This document shows, in pieces, positions 11,612 through 26,847 of a stretch of 64,000 nucleotides of DNA; within the stretch, counting starts at the first letter, position 1; each line of letters begins with the position of its first letter. The stretch spans positions 1,984,001 to 2,048,000 of the forward strand of contig NZ_UZAC03000001.1 of assembly GCF_900538055.1 (NCBI RefSeq), written 5' to 3'. The DNA comes from Pasteuria penetrans. Lineage in GTDB: Bacteria > Bacillota > Bacilli > Thermoactinomycetales > Thermoactinomycetaceae. The position numbers and the translations under genes were made by a program. A model generated the notes under the pieces. That model saw nothing but the letters and a program-made list of their open reading frames with translations. It ran no database searches and was not told the DNA's origin.

Positions 11612-11647
11612 GTGGAGTAGGGCTGGCATCTCAGCTAACCCTCTCAC

Positions 11648-13518
11648 GTCGAGTAGGGCTGGCATCTCAGCCAACCCTCTCACAGAACCACACGTAATAC
11701 TCTCGCATTATGCGGCTCTTATTGCCCCATCTTTGCTTCTAATACGTGCCAGTGGGCGAACAGGTCCCCGTACTTTCCTCGTATATACTGGATCCACCTT
11801 CGAGCCTTTCGCCTGCTACCGAGCTTCTTGTACTTCTTTCTGGCCCACCAGGCCAAAACGTTGTCATCGAAGCTACGTACTAAAGCTTTCCTCAGATGTG
11901 AGGGATAAAAGGCACCATAGTAGTTCACCCAGCCCCTCAATATGGGATTGGACATTTCCGCCACCTCATGCAATTCCATGTCTGGCCTCACGTGTTTTCT
12001 TATTTCCTTCCCCCGTTTCGCTATCTTCTTCCTCGATTTTCGGCTGATGGCTGGATTGTATCCCAGAAACCTTCTTCTCCCCACGCGGGTTACGGCCTGA
12101 CGCGGGCAAAACGTGAACCCCAGGAAGTCAAAGGATGTTCCTTTGTGCTTCCCCGTCTTCCAGCCGTCCTTGCAGTAGAAGATTTTGGTTTTTCTCGGAT
12201 GCAGCTCCAAACCACACTGAGCCATTCTCTGTTGCAATTCTTTCAGAAGATTTTCAGCTTGGGCTTGATTTTCACAATGAAGGATCACGTCATCCACATA
12301 TCTTTCAAACTCAATATCTGGATGATGTTCCTGCAACCATCGATCTAGGGCATAGTGCAGGAACAAATTGGCCAGTAGGGGACTTATTACACCCCCTTGT
12401 GGTGTGCCCTTAGTCCTTTCTTCGATAGTTCCATCGGGTAGTTGCACCGGGGCTTTTAGCCATCTCTCACAATAACGGAGCATTCTTTTATCAATGCCAC
12501 AATGCTCCAATGCTCTGATGAGCAGGTCATGCGGTATATTGTCAAAGAATCCCTTTATGTCAAGATCAATCCCCCAGGCATATTTCCAGCAGCGTCTCCT
12601 ATTCTTATCTACCGCCTCCAAGGCAGATTTCCCCGGGCGACATCCGTAAGAATCGGAAACAAAGCGTGGTTCCAGAAGGGGTTCGAGTCGGTTCCTAACT
12701 ACCGTCTGGGCTATCCTATCTCCTATTGTGGGTATTCCGAGAGGTCTCTTCCCACCGTCTGGCTTCGGGATTTCCACCCTTCGGACCTTGGGCGGGAAAT
12801 AAGACCCTGCATTCATTCGGTTCCATATCTTGTATAGGTTTTGCTTTATCTTGGTTTCAAATTTGGCAATAGATACCTTATCTATCCCATATGTTCCACC
12901 ATTGTGCTTAACCTGGAACCATGCATCTAGTACCTCCTGCTTTTTGATATCGCCCCTGGACGGGTTACGATCTGATGTTGCCTGATCCAACTTCCGATCA
13001 TCTCCTTATTCCAGATTGTGCGTTGGCTGGTTCAGGCTGGACAATTCAACCCCTTCGCTCCACCCTCATTACAAGGGTTTCTTCACTACTATGAGTTGAT
13101 CCGACTCTGTTCACGGAGGCCTTGGTATATCCTTAGCCCTTTACACCTGGCTAAGGCCAGGTGTCCGTGCGACAGTCTCTCGTGGTTCCCTATGAGGGCC
13201 TAAATCAGGTTCATTCCATCTGTGCACCGGATGCCGCCAGGACAGTAGGTGGTTCGCCCTCCATGGCTTCGTTCCAAGGATAGGTTCCGATACCCTTGTT
13301 TCGACATCGACTGCGCCTTTCGGTGCTTTCCCCCAATGGTTCGCTTTACTAATCTCCCTGATTCACACCTGACAGGATTCTTTCGTCCTGCCTTTTCCCA
13401 GAACGCTCACCACCGTTGCTCTTTACAACAGCAGCACTGGGTGGTTTGAAACCTGCCTACCACCAGCCGATTTCGGGGGGCCCCTCCCCCATCCCTCATA
13501 GAGCACGACACGACGCAC
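11648..13518 (-). mobile_element. Inner group II intron of the twintron, with maturase
   Basis: A complete intron of 1871 bases. It has a canonical GTGCG 5' end at 13,518, domain I, a maturase gene in domain IV (12,990-11,719), domain V (GAGCCGCAT...GAGA...) and a 3' end ...CTACTCGAC at 11,648. It sits inside the outer intron exactly one base after that intron's domain V. Its domain I is closely similar to that of the outer intron, so it invaded a relative. To free the outer intron RNA, the inner one would have to splice first. Confidence 0.88.
11719..12990 (-). CDS. ltrA: Group II intron reverse transcriptase/maturase (intron A)
   Basis: Protein of 423 residues encoded in domain IV of the inner intron. 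It assists splicing and reverse transcribes the intron RNA during mobility. Reverse transcriptase motifs are in order: GKRPLGIPT, SYGCRPGKSA, GIDLDIKGFFDNI, GTPQGGVISPLLANLFLH and the catalytic YVDD (about 251-254). The maturase (X) domain follows, with NPILRGWVNYYGAFYP near 350. There is no HNH endonuclease domain after it, as in classes that insert at hairpins or replication forks. It starts with TTG at 12,990 behind a weak CGGAAG site. An inverted copy at 25,304 is identical apart from a nonsense codon and few other changes. Confidence 0.95.
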   Translation of the reverse strand: MDQATSDRNPSRGDIKKQEVLDAWFQVKHNGGTYGIDKVSIAKFETKIKQNLYKIWNRMNAGSYFPPKVRRVEIPKPDGGKRPLGIPTIGDRIAQTVVRNRLEPLLEPRFVSDSYGCRPGKSALEAVDKNRRRCWKYAWGIDLDIKGFFDNIPHDLLIRALEHCGIDKRMLRYCERWLKAPVQLPDGTIEERTKGTPQGGVISPLLANLFLHYALDRWLQEHHPDIEFERYVDDVILHCENQAQAENLLKELQQRMAQCGLELHPRKTKIFYCKDGWKTGKHKGTSFDFLGFTFCPRQAVTRVGRRRFLGYNPAISRKSRKKIAKRGKEIRKHVRPDMELHEVAEMSNPILRGWVNYYGAFYPSHLRKALVRSFDDNVLAWWARKKYKKLGSRRKARRWIQYIRGKYGDLFAHWHVLEAKMGQ

Positions 13519-14326
13519 AGAACCACACGTAATACTCTCGCATTATGTGGCTCTTATGGTCCCATAGGATTTTGTCCATTCAGAATCCCAGTCTGGTGTT
13601 ACGTTCTCCGTACTTCCCTCTGCTGTGTTCTATCCGGATTTCGATCCGATGTTGCCTTGGTCCAACTGCGATCATCTCCTTGTCTCAGATTGTGCGTCCA
13701 GTTAGACCCATCGGGTCTAACCCACGATCATCTCTTTGCTTCGGATTGTACGTTGGCTGGTCCAGGCAAACCATTCAACCCCTTCGCTCCACCCTCATTA
13801 CAAGGGTTTCTCCACTACTATGAGTTGATCCGACTCTGTTCACGGAGGCCTTGGTATACCCTTAGCCCTTTACACCTGGCTAAGGCCAGGTGTCCGTGCG
13901 ACAGTCTCTCGTGGTTCCCTATGAGGGCCTAAATCAGGTTCATTCCATCTGTGCACCGGATGCTGCCAGGACAGTAGGTGGTTCCGCCCTCCATGGCTTC
14001 GTTCCAAGGATAGGACCCGATACCCTTGTTTCGACATCGACTACGCCTTTCGATGCTTTCCTCCAATGGTTTGCTTTACTAATCTCCCTGATTCACACCT
14101 GACAGGATTCTTTCGTCCTGCCTTTTCCCAGAACGCTCACCACCATTGCTCTTTACAACAGCAGCACTGGTCGGTTTGAAATCTGCCTACCACCTGCCGG
14201 TTTCGGGGGGCCCCTCCCCCCTCCCTCATAGAGCACGACACGACACACAGGTCCTTGCGCGGAAGACGAACATTGTGTTGTAGTAAGATCCATCCTGTTT
14301 ATGGTACGTACAAAACAACAAAAAAT

Positions 14327-16285: not shown

Positions 16286-18158
16286 GTGTGTCAAGAAGTC
16301 GGTCAAGAGATGAAGGTTGCTCGGCCCTTCGTAACCGGCTGATAGGTAGCAGGTTACAAACCGCCTAGTGCTGCTGGGGTTAAATGCCTTGGTTGTGAGC
16401 GATCTAGGAAAAGGCAGGGCATGACCCTGTCAGGTGGGAATCGGGGAGATCAGCGAAAGCGAACCGTTCGAAGACGCATCGAAAAATGTAGTCCATGTCA
16501 AAACCGATGTGGGTATCGGACGTCGGGATGAACCGTGGGGGGCGACCTATCTTCTGCCCCGGTGGCATGCGGTGTATAGGCGGGATGAACCCGATTTAGG
16601 CTCTTGATCGGAACTTGAGAGATCGTCGTACGGCGTCTGGCTGTCGCCAGATGTAAAGACCGAGGGCTAACCGAGGTTCCGTGCACGAAGTCGGATCAAC
16701 CCATAGTAGTGTAGAAGCTTCTGTAATGGAAGTGGAGCGAAGGGGTTGAATTGCCTGCATGTTTCAGAGAAGTACAGCAACTTGGATGGAAATTACCGGA
16801 AGAGGAGACTGGTATGAAGCAAGCAACATCGGACCAAAATCCAGACAGATACAATATACAGCAGAAAGAGGTACTGAAGGCGTGGCATCAGGTAATGTCT
16901 AACGATGGAGGTCCTGGAGTGGATCAGCAGACGATTACCGCATTCGCATACGATCTGAGAAGTAATTTGTATGTGATATGGAATCAACTCTGCGCAGGAT
17001 CCTACTTCCCCTCCAAGGTTAGGCGTGTGTGGATTCCCAAGTCATGCGGTGGAAAAAGGCCACTTGGCATACCCACGGTAGCAGACCGGGTAGCCCAGAC
17101 GGTAATAAAGAATCGGCTTGAGCCTCTCCTAGAGACCCACTTTCATGGAGATTCCTATGGATGTCGCCCCAAGAGATCAGCGCATCAGGCGTTACGTGTA
17201 ACCCGTGAGCGCTGTTGGGAGTACGACTGGGGAATCGACCTCGACATAGTGGGCTTCTTTGACAACATTCCGCATCACCTCATTTTGAGGGCCCTTGAGC
17301 ACGTTGGGGCGGATAAAGTAACGTTACTCTATTGCAAGAGGTGGCTTAAGGCACCGGTATTATTACCTGATGGGACGAGCGAGGAAAGGGTTAAGGGCAC
17401 GCCGCAAGGTGGAGTCGTAAGTCCCCTCCTGGCCAATCTGTTCCTGCACTACGCTTTTGATCAATGGATAGAAACGGAGCACCCCGATATACGTTTTGCG
17501 AGGTATGTAGATGATATTATCGTCCACTGCCGGAACAAAGCGCAAGCTGAACATCTTCTTTCAGAAATTCGGCAAAGATTGGCAGAGTGCGGGCTGGAAC
17601 TGCATCCGGAGAAGACCAAAATCTTCTACTGTGAAGATGATAGGCGGAACGGGAATCATGATGTTGTTGCCTTTGATTTTCTAGGGTACGCATTCAAGGC
17701 CCGTGAGGTCAGAAGTCGTCGTACAGGGGTGAGATTTGTGGGTTTCGTACCAGCCATAAGCCAAAAATCTAAAAGCAAGATAGCTAGGCAAGTTGGGAAG
17801 CTGGGCATCCCAAGTAGAGTGGGCATAGATCTGGAGGAGATAGCAAACCTTCTCCATGCCAAACTCATGGGATGGCTTACCTATTATGGCGCCTTCTACC
17901 CTTCGGCCATTAGGAGTTTCTTGCGTGACCACATCGACCAAGTTCTGGCTCGATGGGCCACGAAGAAATACAAAAAGCTGAACAATTGGAAAAAGGCCCT
18001 GAGATGGGTTCGATATATACGGGGAAAGTACCGAAGGCTGTTTGTACACTGGCATCTGAATAGGACAAGATCCTAATGGGGCAATAAGAGCCGTATAATG
18101 GGAGACTATTAAGTACGGTTCTGTGAGAGGGTTGGCTGAAATGCCAGCCCTACTCGAC
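16286..18158 (+). mobile_element. Complete group II intron (intron B)
   Basis: Intron of 1873 bases with 5' end GTGTGTCAAG at 16,286 and 3' end ...CTACTCGAC at 18,158. A maturase gene lies in domain IV and a domain V hairpin (GAGCCGTAT...) at about 18,088-18,122. Domain I differs clearly from intron A. The 5' exon ends in GACGATAT; a truncated copy at 23,668-24,107 sits behind GGCGATAC (minus strand). The shared CGATA is therefore the likely recognised exon sequence. Confidence 0.88.
16814..18076 (+). CDS. ltrA: Group II intron reverse transcriptase/maturase (intron B)
   Basis: Protein of 420 residues, start at the ATG at 16,814 (MKQATSDQN). This aligns with the start of the intron A protein; the frame is open further upstream. 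Motifs are GKRPLGIPTVADR, SYGCRPKRSA, GIDLDIVGFFDNIP, GTPQGGVVSPLLANLFLH and YVDD at the active site. The maturase domain has LMGWLTYYGAFYP, and no endonuclease domain follows. It is the same class as intron A but clearly divergent. The frame is intact, so it may be the only active maturase on this side of the island and could serve ORF-less relatives in trans. Confidence 0.95.
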   Translation: MKQATSDQNPDRYNIQQKEVLKAWHQVMSNDGGPGVDQQTITAFAYDLRSNLYVIWNQLCAGSYFPSKVRRVWIPKSCGGKRPLGIPTVADRVAQTVIKNRLEPLLETHFHGDSYGCRPKRSAHQALRVTRERCWEYDWGIDLDIVGFFDNIPHHLILRALEHVGADKVTLLYCKRWLKAPVLLPDGTSEERVKGTPQGGVVSPLLANLFLHYAFDQWIETEHPDIRFARYVDDIIVHCRNKAQAEHLLSEIRQRLAECGLELHPEKTKIFYCEDDRRNGNHDVVAFDFLGYAFKAREVRSRRTGVRFVGFVPAISQKSKSKIARQVGKLGIPSRVGIDLEEIANLLHAKLMGWLTYYGAFYPSAIRSFLRDHIDQVLARWATKKYKKLNNWKKALRWVRYIRGKYRRLFVHWHLNRTRS

Positions 18159-22570: not shown

Positions 22571-23667
22571 TAGGAAGGCCTCCTTTTATTATGAGTAAGT
22601 AGTAGTACATATATAGAAGTTTATATATTACATGAGGGTATGAAGTTTTTTATTATGATATGTCCTAAATAAATTTAATAAAGTTTTATTCGATGAACCT
22701 ATTAAAACATGGGCGAGAATAGTATACAACAGGTTATAATTTACAAAATTAATCATGATTTATGTAAGAAATCATATCATTATTATGTATACACCTTTTG
22801 TATTATAAAAATAGGTTGCTTTTCTTTTGCAATCATCACTTCTATTGCATAAGGTTGAAGAAGGTCAAGGATTGTGATTCTCCAATGAATGCCCATTCTA
22901 TTCAATTGTATTGTAATTTAAATTTTTATTATAAATCATCATACTACTAGTATTATCTAAATAAAAAATGGGTTATAATGAAGATTCCTGTAAAAGTATT
23001 CTAAATATAGAATTAAAGGAAAATAATATTATATACATATTTAATTATTATATAATATTTTTTATACACGGGTTCATCGGTTCCACTCTCCCTTACTTCT
23101 TCTGGTGATAACGGAGACAGAAAAGGGCCGTAATCTAACGGACAATCCCGCTTATGGGGGCAAACCCATGTGAATACATAGATCCGGCTTCCCGATAGGG
23201 AAGAGGGGTGTGTCTAAGATGAATGGTACTACTCTCGCATGGTACTCCTTAGTGTCTTTTATAGTTTTCAGGGCAATCGCTTTGTAATAGAAAATATCCT
23301 ACCCGCAGATCTCCATATCAAACGCTTATGTTGTTTCCGGATCGGAGGGTTCCTGGAACCCTCCTGTGCGATCCCCCCAAAAGCAATTTTCAGGGGGAAG
23401 GGGGTTCTTCCCTGTTGGCATCCCGTAGATTCCTAAGGAAGCAGGCTATAGGAGGATGACCATCCCATTCACCGGATACGGTCCTTCATTGAGAATGGCC
23501 ATCCTAGGGCCGTGATGGGCGTTGGTAACACGATCGGAGGAATCAAAGGGTTCTGCGACCCTGTAAGCGGAAGGTTCCTCCAAACCTGATCCCCTAGGCG
23601 TCCGGATGTTCTGGGGGCCCGTATCCAACATAAAAGATTTCCCCCATACCCTTCCATCCACGTCCTA
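22571..23667. other. AT-rich upstream region and GC-rich unknown block
   Basis: 22,571-23,090 is very AT-rich and should hold the promoter of the surface protein gene (minus strand). From 23,100 to 23,667 the sequence becomes GC-rich, with several short direct and inverted matches such as ATGACCATCC/ATGGCCATCC and GGGTTC...GACCC. No frame looks like a protein. It resembles structured or degraded mobile DNA but matches neither intron A nor intron B. Confidence 0.35.
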
Positions 23668-24107
23668 TACAGAAGCTTCTACACTACTATGGGTTGATCC
23701 GACTTCGTGCACGGAACCTCGGTTAGCCCTCGGTCTTTACATCTGGCGACAGCCAGACGCCGTACGACGATCTCTCAAGTTCCGATCAAGAGCCTAAATC
23801 GGGTTCATCCCGCCTATACACCGCATGCCACCGGGGCAGAAGATAGGTCGCCCCCCACGGTTCATCCCGACGTCCGATACCCACCTCGGTTTTGACATGG
23901 ACTACATTTTTCGATGCGTCTTCGAACGGTTCGCTTTCGCTGATCTCCCCGATTCCCACCTGACAGGGTCATGCCCTGCCTTTTCCTAGATCGCTCACAA
24001 CCAAGGCATTTAACCCCAGCAGCACTAGGCGGTTTGTAACCTGCTACCTATCAGCCGGTTACGAAGGGCCGAGCAACCTTCATCTCTTGACCGACTTCTT
24101 GACACAC
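23668..24107 (-). mobile_element. Truncated group II intron B copy (domain I only)
   Basis: On the minus strand, 24,107 to 23,668 reproduces bases 16,286-16,724 of intron B with few changes, beginning GTGTGTCAAG. It stops just before the maturase region, and domains IV-VI are missing. The 5' exon is an IS3-type transposase gene on the opposite strand (24,109-24,738), so the intron landed antisense inside that gene. A 5' portion of an intron without its 3' end points to later recombination, because failed reverse transcription normally loses the 5' end. Confidence 0.85.
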
Positions 24108-25294: not shown

Positions 25295-26847
25295 GATCGG
25301 AAGTTGGATCAGGCAACATCAGATCGTAACCCGTCCAGGGGCGATATCAAAAAGCAGGAGGTACTAGATGCATGGTTCCAGGTTAAGCACAATGGTGGAA
25401 CATATGGGATAGATAAGGTATCTATTGCCAAATTTGAAACCAAGATAAAGCAAAACCTATACAAGATATGGAACCGAATGAATGCAGGGTCTTATTTCCC
25501 GCCCAAGGTCCGAAGGGTGGAAATCCCGAAGCCAGACGGTGGGAAGAGACCTCTCGGAATACCCACAATAGGAGATAGGATAGCCCAGACGGTAGTTAGG
25601 AACCGACTCGAACCCCTTCTGGAACCACGCTTTGTTTCCGATTCTTACGGATGTCGCCCGGGGAAATCTGCCTTGGAGGCGGTAGATAAGAATAGGAGAC
25701 GCTGCTGGAAATATGCCTGGGGGATTGATCTTGACATAAAGGGATTCTTTGACAATATACCGCATGACCTGCTCATCAGAGCATTGGAGCATTGTGGCAT
25801 TGATAAAAGAATGCTCCGTTATTGTGAGAGATGGCTAAAAGCCCCGGTGCAACTACCCGATGGAACTATCGAAGAAAGGACTAAGGGCACACCACAAGGG
25901 GGTGTAATAAGTCCCCTACTGGCCAATTTGTTCCTGCACTATGCCCTAGATCGATGGTTGCAGGAACATCATCCAGATATTGAGTTTGAAAGATATGTGG
26001 ATGACGTGATCCTTCATTGTGAAAATCAAGCCCAAGCTGAAAATCTTCTGAAAGAATTGCAACAGAGAATGGCTCAGTGTGGTTTGGAGCTGCATCCGAG
26101 AAAAACCAAAATCTTCTACTGCAAGGACGGCTGGAAGACGGGGAAGCACAAAGGAACATCCTTTGACTTCCTGGGGTTCACGTTTTGCCCGCGTCAGGCC
26201 GTAACCCGCGTGGGGAGAAGAAGGTTTCTGGGATACAATCCAGCCATCAGCCGAAAATCGAGGAAGAAGATAGCGAAACGGGGGAAGGAAATAAGAAAAC
26301 ACGTGAGGCCAGACATGGAATTGCATGAGGTGGCGGAAATGTCCAATCCCATATTGAGGGGCTAGGTGAACTACTATGGTGCCTTTTATCCCTCACATCT
26401 GAGGAAAGCTTTAGTACGGAGCTTCGATGACAACGTTTTGGCCTGGTGGGCCAGAAAGAAGTACAAGAAGCTCGGTAGCAGGCGAAAAGCTCGAAGGTGG
26501 ATCCAGTATATACGAGGAAAGTACGGGGACCTGTTCGCCCACTGGCACGTATTAGAAGCAAAGATGGGGCAATAAGAGCCGCATAATGCGAGAGTATTAC
26601 GTGTGGTTCTGTGAGAGGGTTGGCTGAGATGCCAGCCCTACTCGACGTGAGAGGGTTAGCTGAGATGCCAGCCCTACTCTACAGTGAAAATTTTATAAAA
26701 ATTCATATGAAATAAGATAAATACCCCTGGGATACCAAAACAGGAACAGTGTCATAACAAAATGTTATTATGTTACTCAATTGCTTTACGAAAAGGTGAG
26801 ACTAGATTCATAGATAGGGCATTCCCCACAAGAAACTGCACGGTCCC
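25295..26847 (+). repeat. Right arm of a 1.55-kb inverted repeat
   Basis: Bases 25,295-26,847 are a near-perfect reverse complement of 11,447-12,999. The arm includes the intron A maturase, the domain V/VI ends of both inner and outer introns in tandem, and the IS-A end ...CACGGTCCC. It lacks the whole intron 5' half. Because the shared segment includes non-intron DNA on the IS-A side, it arose by copying or recombination rather than by retrohoming. Confidence 0.88.
25304..26575 (+). pseudogene. Group II maturase with one nonsense codon (intron A copy)
   Basis: Same 423-codon gene as 11,719-12,990, but codon 354 is TAG (26,363-26,365) where the other copy has TGG, in NPILRGWVNYY. The stop cuts the protein inside the maturase domain; the reverse transcriptase domain with YVDD would still be made. 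Downstream codons remain intact to 26,575, so the mutation is recent. With no intron 5' domains in front, the copy cannot move as an intron. Confidence 0.9.

Follow-up and report, generated by a model that had tools for sequence, protein, structure and literature searches.

The window, a stretch of 64,000 nucleotides (C1:1984001-2048000) from a genome of 2.52 Mb in four contigs, contains an intergenic group II twintron. It lies entirely on the minus strand, in the order 5′ exon, outer intron, inner intron, outer domain VI (DVI) and 3′ exon. The outer element is an ORF-less group II intron (14248-13519 and 11647-11612, minus strand), which is split one base past its domain V (DV) hairpin. Its 5′ part (13519-14248; domains I-V and one base) begins with GTGTGTCG at 14248, after a 5′ exon ending at 14249 with ...CGCGCAAGGACCT, and gave an RF01999 match at 14097-14220 (85.6 bits). 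The outer DV, a 34-nt hairpin of the form GAGCC...GGTTC (13520-13553), was found by the genome search (C1:1997498-1997555) and by folding; scored alone, it reached 38.8 bits, as compared with 58.5 bits for an uninterrupted paralogue. The insert is a complete intron of 1,871 nt (13518-11648, minus strand) with an RT-maturase gene; its first bases at 13518 are GTGCGTCG, its last bases at 11648 are CTACTCGAC, and a near-identical copy is present at C1:1418822-1420692. The displaced outer DVI (11612-11647) is followed by the 3′ exon AGTGAAAATTTT. Both introns have ends that match GUGYG...AY (GTGCG...AC for the inner and GTGTG...AC for the outer intron). Rfam models detected D1-D4 modules in both introns and a complete DV/DVI in the inner one (11648-11720; RF00029, 56.3 bits). 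RF00029, RF01999 and the DV/DVI fold together place a group II core, consisting of the DV hairpin, DVI and D1-D4, in each intron.

The inner ORF (11719-12990, minus strand) is intact and encodes 423 aa, with RVT_1 and GIIM domains above gathering and a TIGR04416 match of 392 bits, above the cut-off. The domain search found no endonuclease (HNH) domain in this protein. A scan of genome contigs yielded relatives in other genomes with at most ~56% IEP identity, and the best relative of solved structure was the GsI-IIC RT, a class C enzyme. The inner intron may belong to class C by its nearest solved RT, but it has an EBS2-like region and shows no preference for hairpins. The usual RT motif in group II introns is YADD; both maturases of the window (11719-12990, minus strand, and 16751-18076, plus strand) carry YVDD.

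Divergent from the twintron, a Mutator-family transposase-like ORF (PF00872; 14532-15872, plus strand) contains the repetitive N-terminal stretch MAMANEKLALAN. At 16286-18158 (plus strand) lies a complete B-type intron that encodes a maturase of its own (441 aa). Its EBS1, GTATCG, matches CGATAT; its 3′ exon reads AAGTAATTTTCC, and the start of this exon recurs at C1:313755. A second copy of the twintron's 3′ part, truncated on its 5′ side, occupies 25295-26682 (plus strand). It comprises the end of the inner ORF, DV, DVI and, at 26647-26682, the outer DVI, and the 3′ exon of the twintron recurs behind it. The truncated 5′ part of a B-type intron (23649-24107, minus strand) faces this copy. 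The facing pieces and the reuse of the twintron's 3′ exon suggest recombination through introns.

Excision of 13518-11648 rejoins GGTTCT|GTGAGAGG, a normal DV/DVI junction, and leaves an outer intron of 766 nt (730 + 36). The uninterrupted paralogue at C1:308756-309519 is identical to this rejoined intron at 752/766 positions, with no difference across the junction, and its exons equal those of the twintron (5′ CGCGCAAGGACCT, 3′ AGTGAAAATTTTATAAAAATTCATATG). When folded, the rejoined DV-DVI segment formed the two expected hairpins, and one base close to the 3′ end was bulged. The outer tail reads GGGTTAGC, as does the paralogue, and the inner DVI reads GGGTTGGC; the diagnostic base lies in GGTTAGC of the outer tail versus GGTTGGC of the inner DVI. 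This base assigns the 36-base tail to the outer intron and rules out a duplicate of the inner 3′ terminus. Together with the paralogue, it identifies the tail as the displaced outer DVI and the event as an insertion at GGTTCT|GTGAG. The preliminary description had placed a complete intron between the outer DV and DVI and had held that its removal restores their junction. Both statements were borne out by the paralogue and the fold, and the twintron was confirmed as real at the level of sequence.

EBS1 was located by aligning the 5′ ends of all introns and by pairing; it occupies intron positions 231-236 in A-type introns. The inner EBS1 GGAACC (13283-13288) paired at 6/6 positions, including one G-U, with the IBS1 GGTTCT (13519-13524), which is the 3′ strand of the outer DV plus one base (T13519). 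Thus, the pairing of the inner intron with the outer DV that had been put forward for checking was found, as was a target within the conserved core of the intron's own family. The outer EBS1 GGGTCC (14013-14018) likewise paired at 6/6 positions with GGACCT at the end of its own 5′ exon (14249-14254). Between the two introns, EBS1 and target differ in step, with matching changes on both sides. This covariation, together with the paralogue, excludes a chance origin. Among 33 distinct pairs of intron and exon, EBS1-IBS1 pairing averaged 5.15/6 versus 3.73 with permuted partners, perfect pairs numbered 17 versus 3.1, and 0/20,000 permutations were as high as the observed value, which is somewhat favored by the register having been picked per family through inspection of pairings. 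Two points weigh against guide pairing. The putative EBS2 is a variable segment around intron position 200 that changes with the EBS1 class; it paired at 5/6 positions at one site class and poorly elsewhere, and EBS2-IBS2 pairing is weak or unclear. Moreover, the inner IBS1 does not follow the DV stem but is part of its 3′ strand, a position that might hinder access.

Other EBS1 classes also have recognizable targets. Class GGCACT matches AGTGCT in D1 of introns, GTCCCG matches CGGGAT near intron position 302, GGTCCT matches TGGGCC in the maturase ORF (5/6), and GTATCG matches CGATAY at sites outside introns. The classes with intron-internal matches imply that the inner intron is the domain V class of a larger intron-homing set.

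The insertion point is used repeatedly in the genome. Full-length reading covered ~0.8 Mb, in stretches around the detected DVs. The inner intron exists in three full-length copies (C1:1997518-, C1:1420692- and C2:20267-), each of them directly behind a DV, with one extra base at C2:20267-. Three further A-type introns with the 5′ end kept (C1:1568362+, C1:648125- and C2:14624-) are also found behind a DV. The search for other introns interrupted at the same point, which the preliminary description had called for, was therefore positive. GGTTCT is carried by ~49 scored DVs, and an estimated 1,750 further GGTTCT hexamers lie outside introns. Of six insertions whose IBS1 is exactly GGTTCT, four are at a DV; another insertion behind a DV, C2:20267, is off by one base. 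Were every site equally open to insertion, such a concentration would be unlikely to arise by chance (about 1e-5 by our own estimate). Insertions into introns may be over-represented through survival at harmless sites rather than through targeting. RF00029 gave at least 117 matches at E ≤ 0.001, 90 of them above gathering, a lower bound from 150 scored candidates out of 350. A survey of representative genomes arrived at a maximum of 101 introns (PMC8919778), a number counted differently from our 117 matches, many of which are fragments. Among the genomes of 30 relatives, the inner intron was matched, weakly, in one other genome only. The DV|GTGYG junction pattern gave three matches in its own genome and 0 in 397 other genomes sampled from the phylum.

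Behind 15 DVs, at least two DVIs are joined without gaps, with six at C1:1418822 and four at C2:37472. Many of these loci carry an A-type tail and then a B-type tail. Such an order cannot come from slippage. At 846846, 1309507, 1346784, 1568996, 2106091 and C4:1678, the upstream sequence is B-type and turns A-type before the tails. The switch at C4:1678 falls inside DV, the 5′ strand being B-type and the 3′ strand A-type. Such a chimaeric DV is the product expected of DV-DV recombination after an A intron has nested behind a B DV. Some of the B/A switch points are at non-homologous positions, which points to further deletion in some cases. A few loci consist of tails only (C1:2107404, C1:2182507 and C4:72629), as further deletion would give. 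The sequences at C1:2182507-2182577 and C4:72629-72699 form an identical repeat, shared by the chromosome and a small contig, of two stacked DVIs (A then B) with no DV. Against an origin by nesting, the 5′ exon of some double-tailed introns is something other than a DV (C1:1032575+). Overall, the most fitting interpretation of the 15 stacked loci is that introns nested there and were later lost by recombination, with the extra tails as scars.

Two other origins or uses of the extra DVIs were weighed. Slippage or template switching could simply have doubled the 3′ end in tandem, in which case the extra DVI would not be a displaced outer end. Tandem identical tails are indeed known at C1:1418822, and a few tails stand without any DV. 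At the twintron, however, the tail is unlike the inner DVI and equals that of the paralogous outer intron, the upstream half of the outer intron is present with its own 5′ end and exon, and doubled tails elsewhere often derive from two families, A then B. We regard a duplication as extremely improbable, and the comparison with the paralogue rejects it at the twintron locus; the identical tails of the six-tail array are possible duplicates and could stem from slippage of a 36-bp repeat. The preliminary description had named two observations that would speak against nesting. A tail that merely duplicates the 3′ end was not what we saw; tails standing alone do occur, at the three degraded tail-only loci, although at the twintron the upstream half is in place. 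According to another explanation, stacked DVIs are more than scars: they would offer a choice of 3′ splice sites, and introns with extra tails could move as a unit. In Clostridium tetani C.te.I1, four 3′ splice sites are in use, and a different DV/VI repeat determines each of them (PMC4424553). The double-tailed A introns at non-DV exons (C1:1032575+) would fit, and both tails are kept in the tail-only copies. The repeat unit here is nevertheless DVI without DV, decay is frequent among the outer tails (at C2:37472, those of the four-tail array show 3 to 5 differences), and the studied locus is intergenic. We consider this function rather unlikely.

The choice of target has its own competing explanation. 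The preliminary description had supposed that the inner intron recognizes a stem-loop with a short motif behind it, in the way class C introns use terminators; DV would then serve as a terminator-like hairpin. Every DV target is a hairpin of about -11 kcal/mol, and the nearest solved RT, GsI-IIC, belongs to class C. However, the best hairpins ending 4-12 nt before 47 insertion sites outside recognized introns were not stronger than those at 300 random non-intron positions (mean -3.1 vs -2.8 kcal/mol, p = 0.20), so the class C trait of inserting downstream of hairpins or terminators was not seen. One of the 47 sites (1568362) is a DV missed by the mask; its inclusion favors the hairpin idea, which still fails. 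Several A-type relatives also occupy hairpin-free sites with a good IBS1 (e.g., 124500, 389250, 1383373 and 1595677), and EBS1 pairing is sufficient for the choice of site. Stem-loop recognition is therefore very unlikely. Judged from these alignments and counts, the six-base EBS1-IBS1 pairing explains the target choice.

With the above results in hand, we infer the mobility, priming, splicing and order of events as follows. The twintron very probably arose through retrohoming of the maturase intron, whose EBS1 GGAACC fits the 3′ strand GGTTCT of DV. The target of the inner intron would be the DV/DVI junction of related introns, where the spliced inner lariat RNP would reverse-splice into GGTTCT|GTGAG on the DNA of the outer intron. 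Priming was probably provided by the replication fork, since an endonuclease domain was not found. The outer branch-point domain would then be kept from its catalytic domain until the inner intron is spliced out, which would restore GGUUCU^GUGAG exactly. Because the outer DVI stays apart from DV until this removal, splicing should be sequential, through the intermediate GGUUCU^GUGAGAGG to the joined exons GGACCU^AGUGAAAA. Every insertion supplies a fresh DV/DVI target, and nesting can therefore repeat. The outer and inner DVs are direct repeats, and recombination between them would delete the interior and leave one extra DVI. Rounds of nesting and DV-DV recombination would thus yield the stacked tails. 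The self-propagating nesting proposed in the preliminary description holds insofar as each insert carries a new target, but the extra copies were apparently lost by recombination, and mainly DVI scars remain. More tentatively, the inner element may be a hyperparasitic lineage specialized on DV, with an EBS1 that complements a conserved core, including that of its own RNA, and with DVI scars as the record of its invasions; we hold this as a possibility somewhat short of probable.

Homing of introns into related intron ORFs was reportedly described, by the title of the work, for Methanosarcina acetivorans by Dai and Zimmerly in 2003. In that organism, nested homing into group II introns reaches up to five deep, with deletion by homologous recombination (PMC4424553). 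The present case shares the repeated site-specific homing into introns, the recombinational loss and the lack of coding exons, but here the host is a bacterium, the target is the DV/DVI junction instead of intron ORFs (again by that title), and stacked DVIs mark past events. In Thermosynechococcus elongatus, ORF-less introns insert into DIV, at the ORF start, of ORF-bearing ones (Mohr et al. 2010, PMC2882425). There too, a family evolved for one conserved site in sister introns, EBS families set the targets, and many introns are ORF-less; here, in contrast, an ORF-bearing intron lies behind the DV of an ORF-less one, and EBS1 fits the catalytic domain. The bacterial group II twintron of Trichodesmium erythraeum was shown to splice sequentially in vivo (PMC4649490), an order that is predicted here. 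It differs in residing in a protein gene, in combining two distantly related ORF-bearing introns, in being a single case and in its insertion point (PMC4649490). In the chloroplast twintrons of euglenids (Copertino and Hallick 1991, cited in PMC4424553), too, inner introns can be situated within or close to the 3′ catalytic domains; in petG of Eutreptiella, three nucleotides separate an internal twintron from the external 3′ splice site that follows it (PMC5572947). Those introns are organellar and degenerate, and neither EBS1-to-DV matching nor DVI arrays are described for them (PMC4424553, PMC5572947). C. tetani C.te.I1 resembles our loci in its repeated 3′-terminal domains (PMC3919590, PMC4424553), but its DV/VI units serve alternative splicing, whereas here DVI alone is repeated, as explained by nesting. 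Our literature search, which was thin on subscription journals, found no report of a bacterial intron with a DV-matching guide or of DVI scar arrays. Twintrons and nested homing with deletion are already known; the DV/VI target and the DVI scar arrays appear to be new.

Few bacterial twintrons are well resolved. In this genome, a natural series leads from the empty site through a fresh insertion and same-point nesting in several introns to recombined chimaeras and to scar arrays with as many as six DVIs, which makes the idea of introns breeding on introns testable. It also raises the puzzle of how an intron works when its exon guide complements its own catalytic DV.

Nesting of B-type introns was observed as well. 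In the clusters at C1:637784-641594 and C1:2104557-2106200, the insertions are at positions 87 (AGTGCT) and 302 (CGGGAT) of B-type introns. About ten ORF-less B-type introns, head to tail and nested, are packed within 6.8 kb at C1:1851374-1858163. Where one intron follows another head to tail, the junction CTCGAC|GTGTGTC offers no match to EBS1 (2/6). The array could have been built by insertion after insertion, if the first bases of the intron themselves recreate the site.
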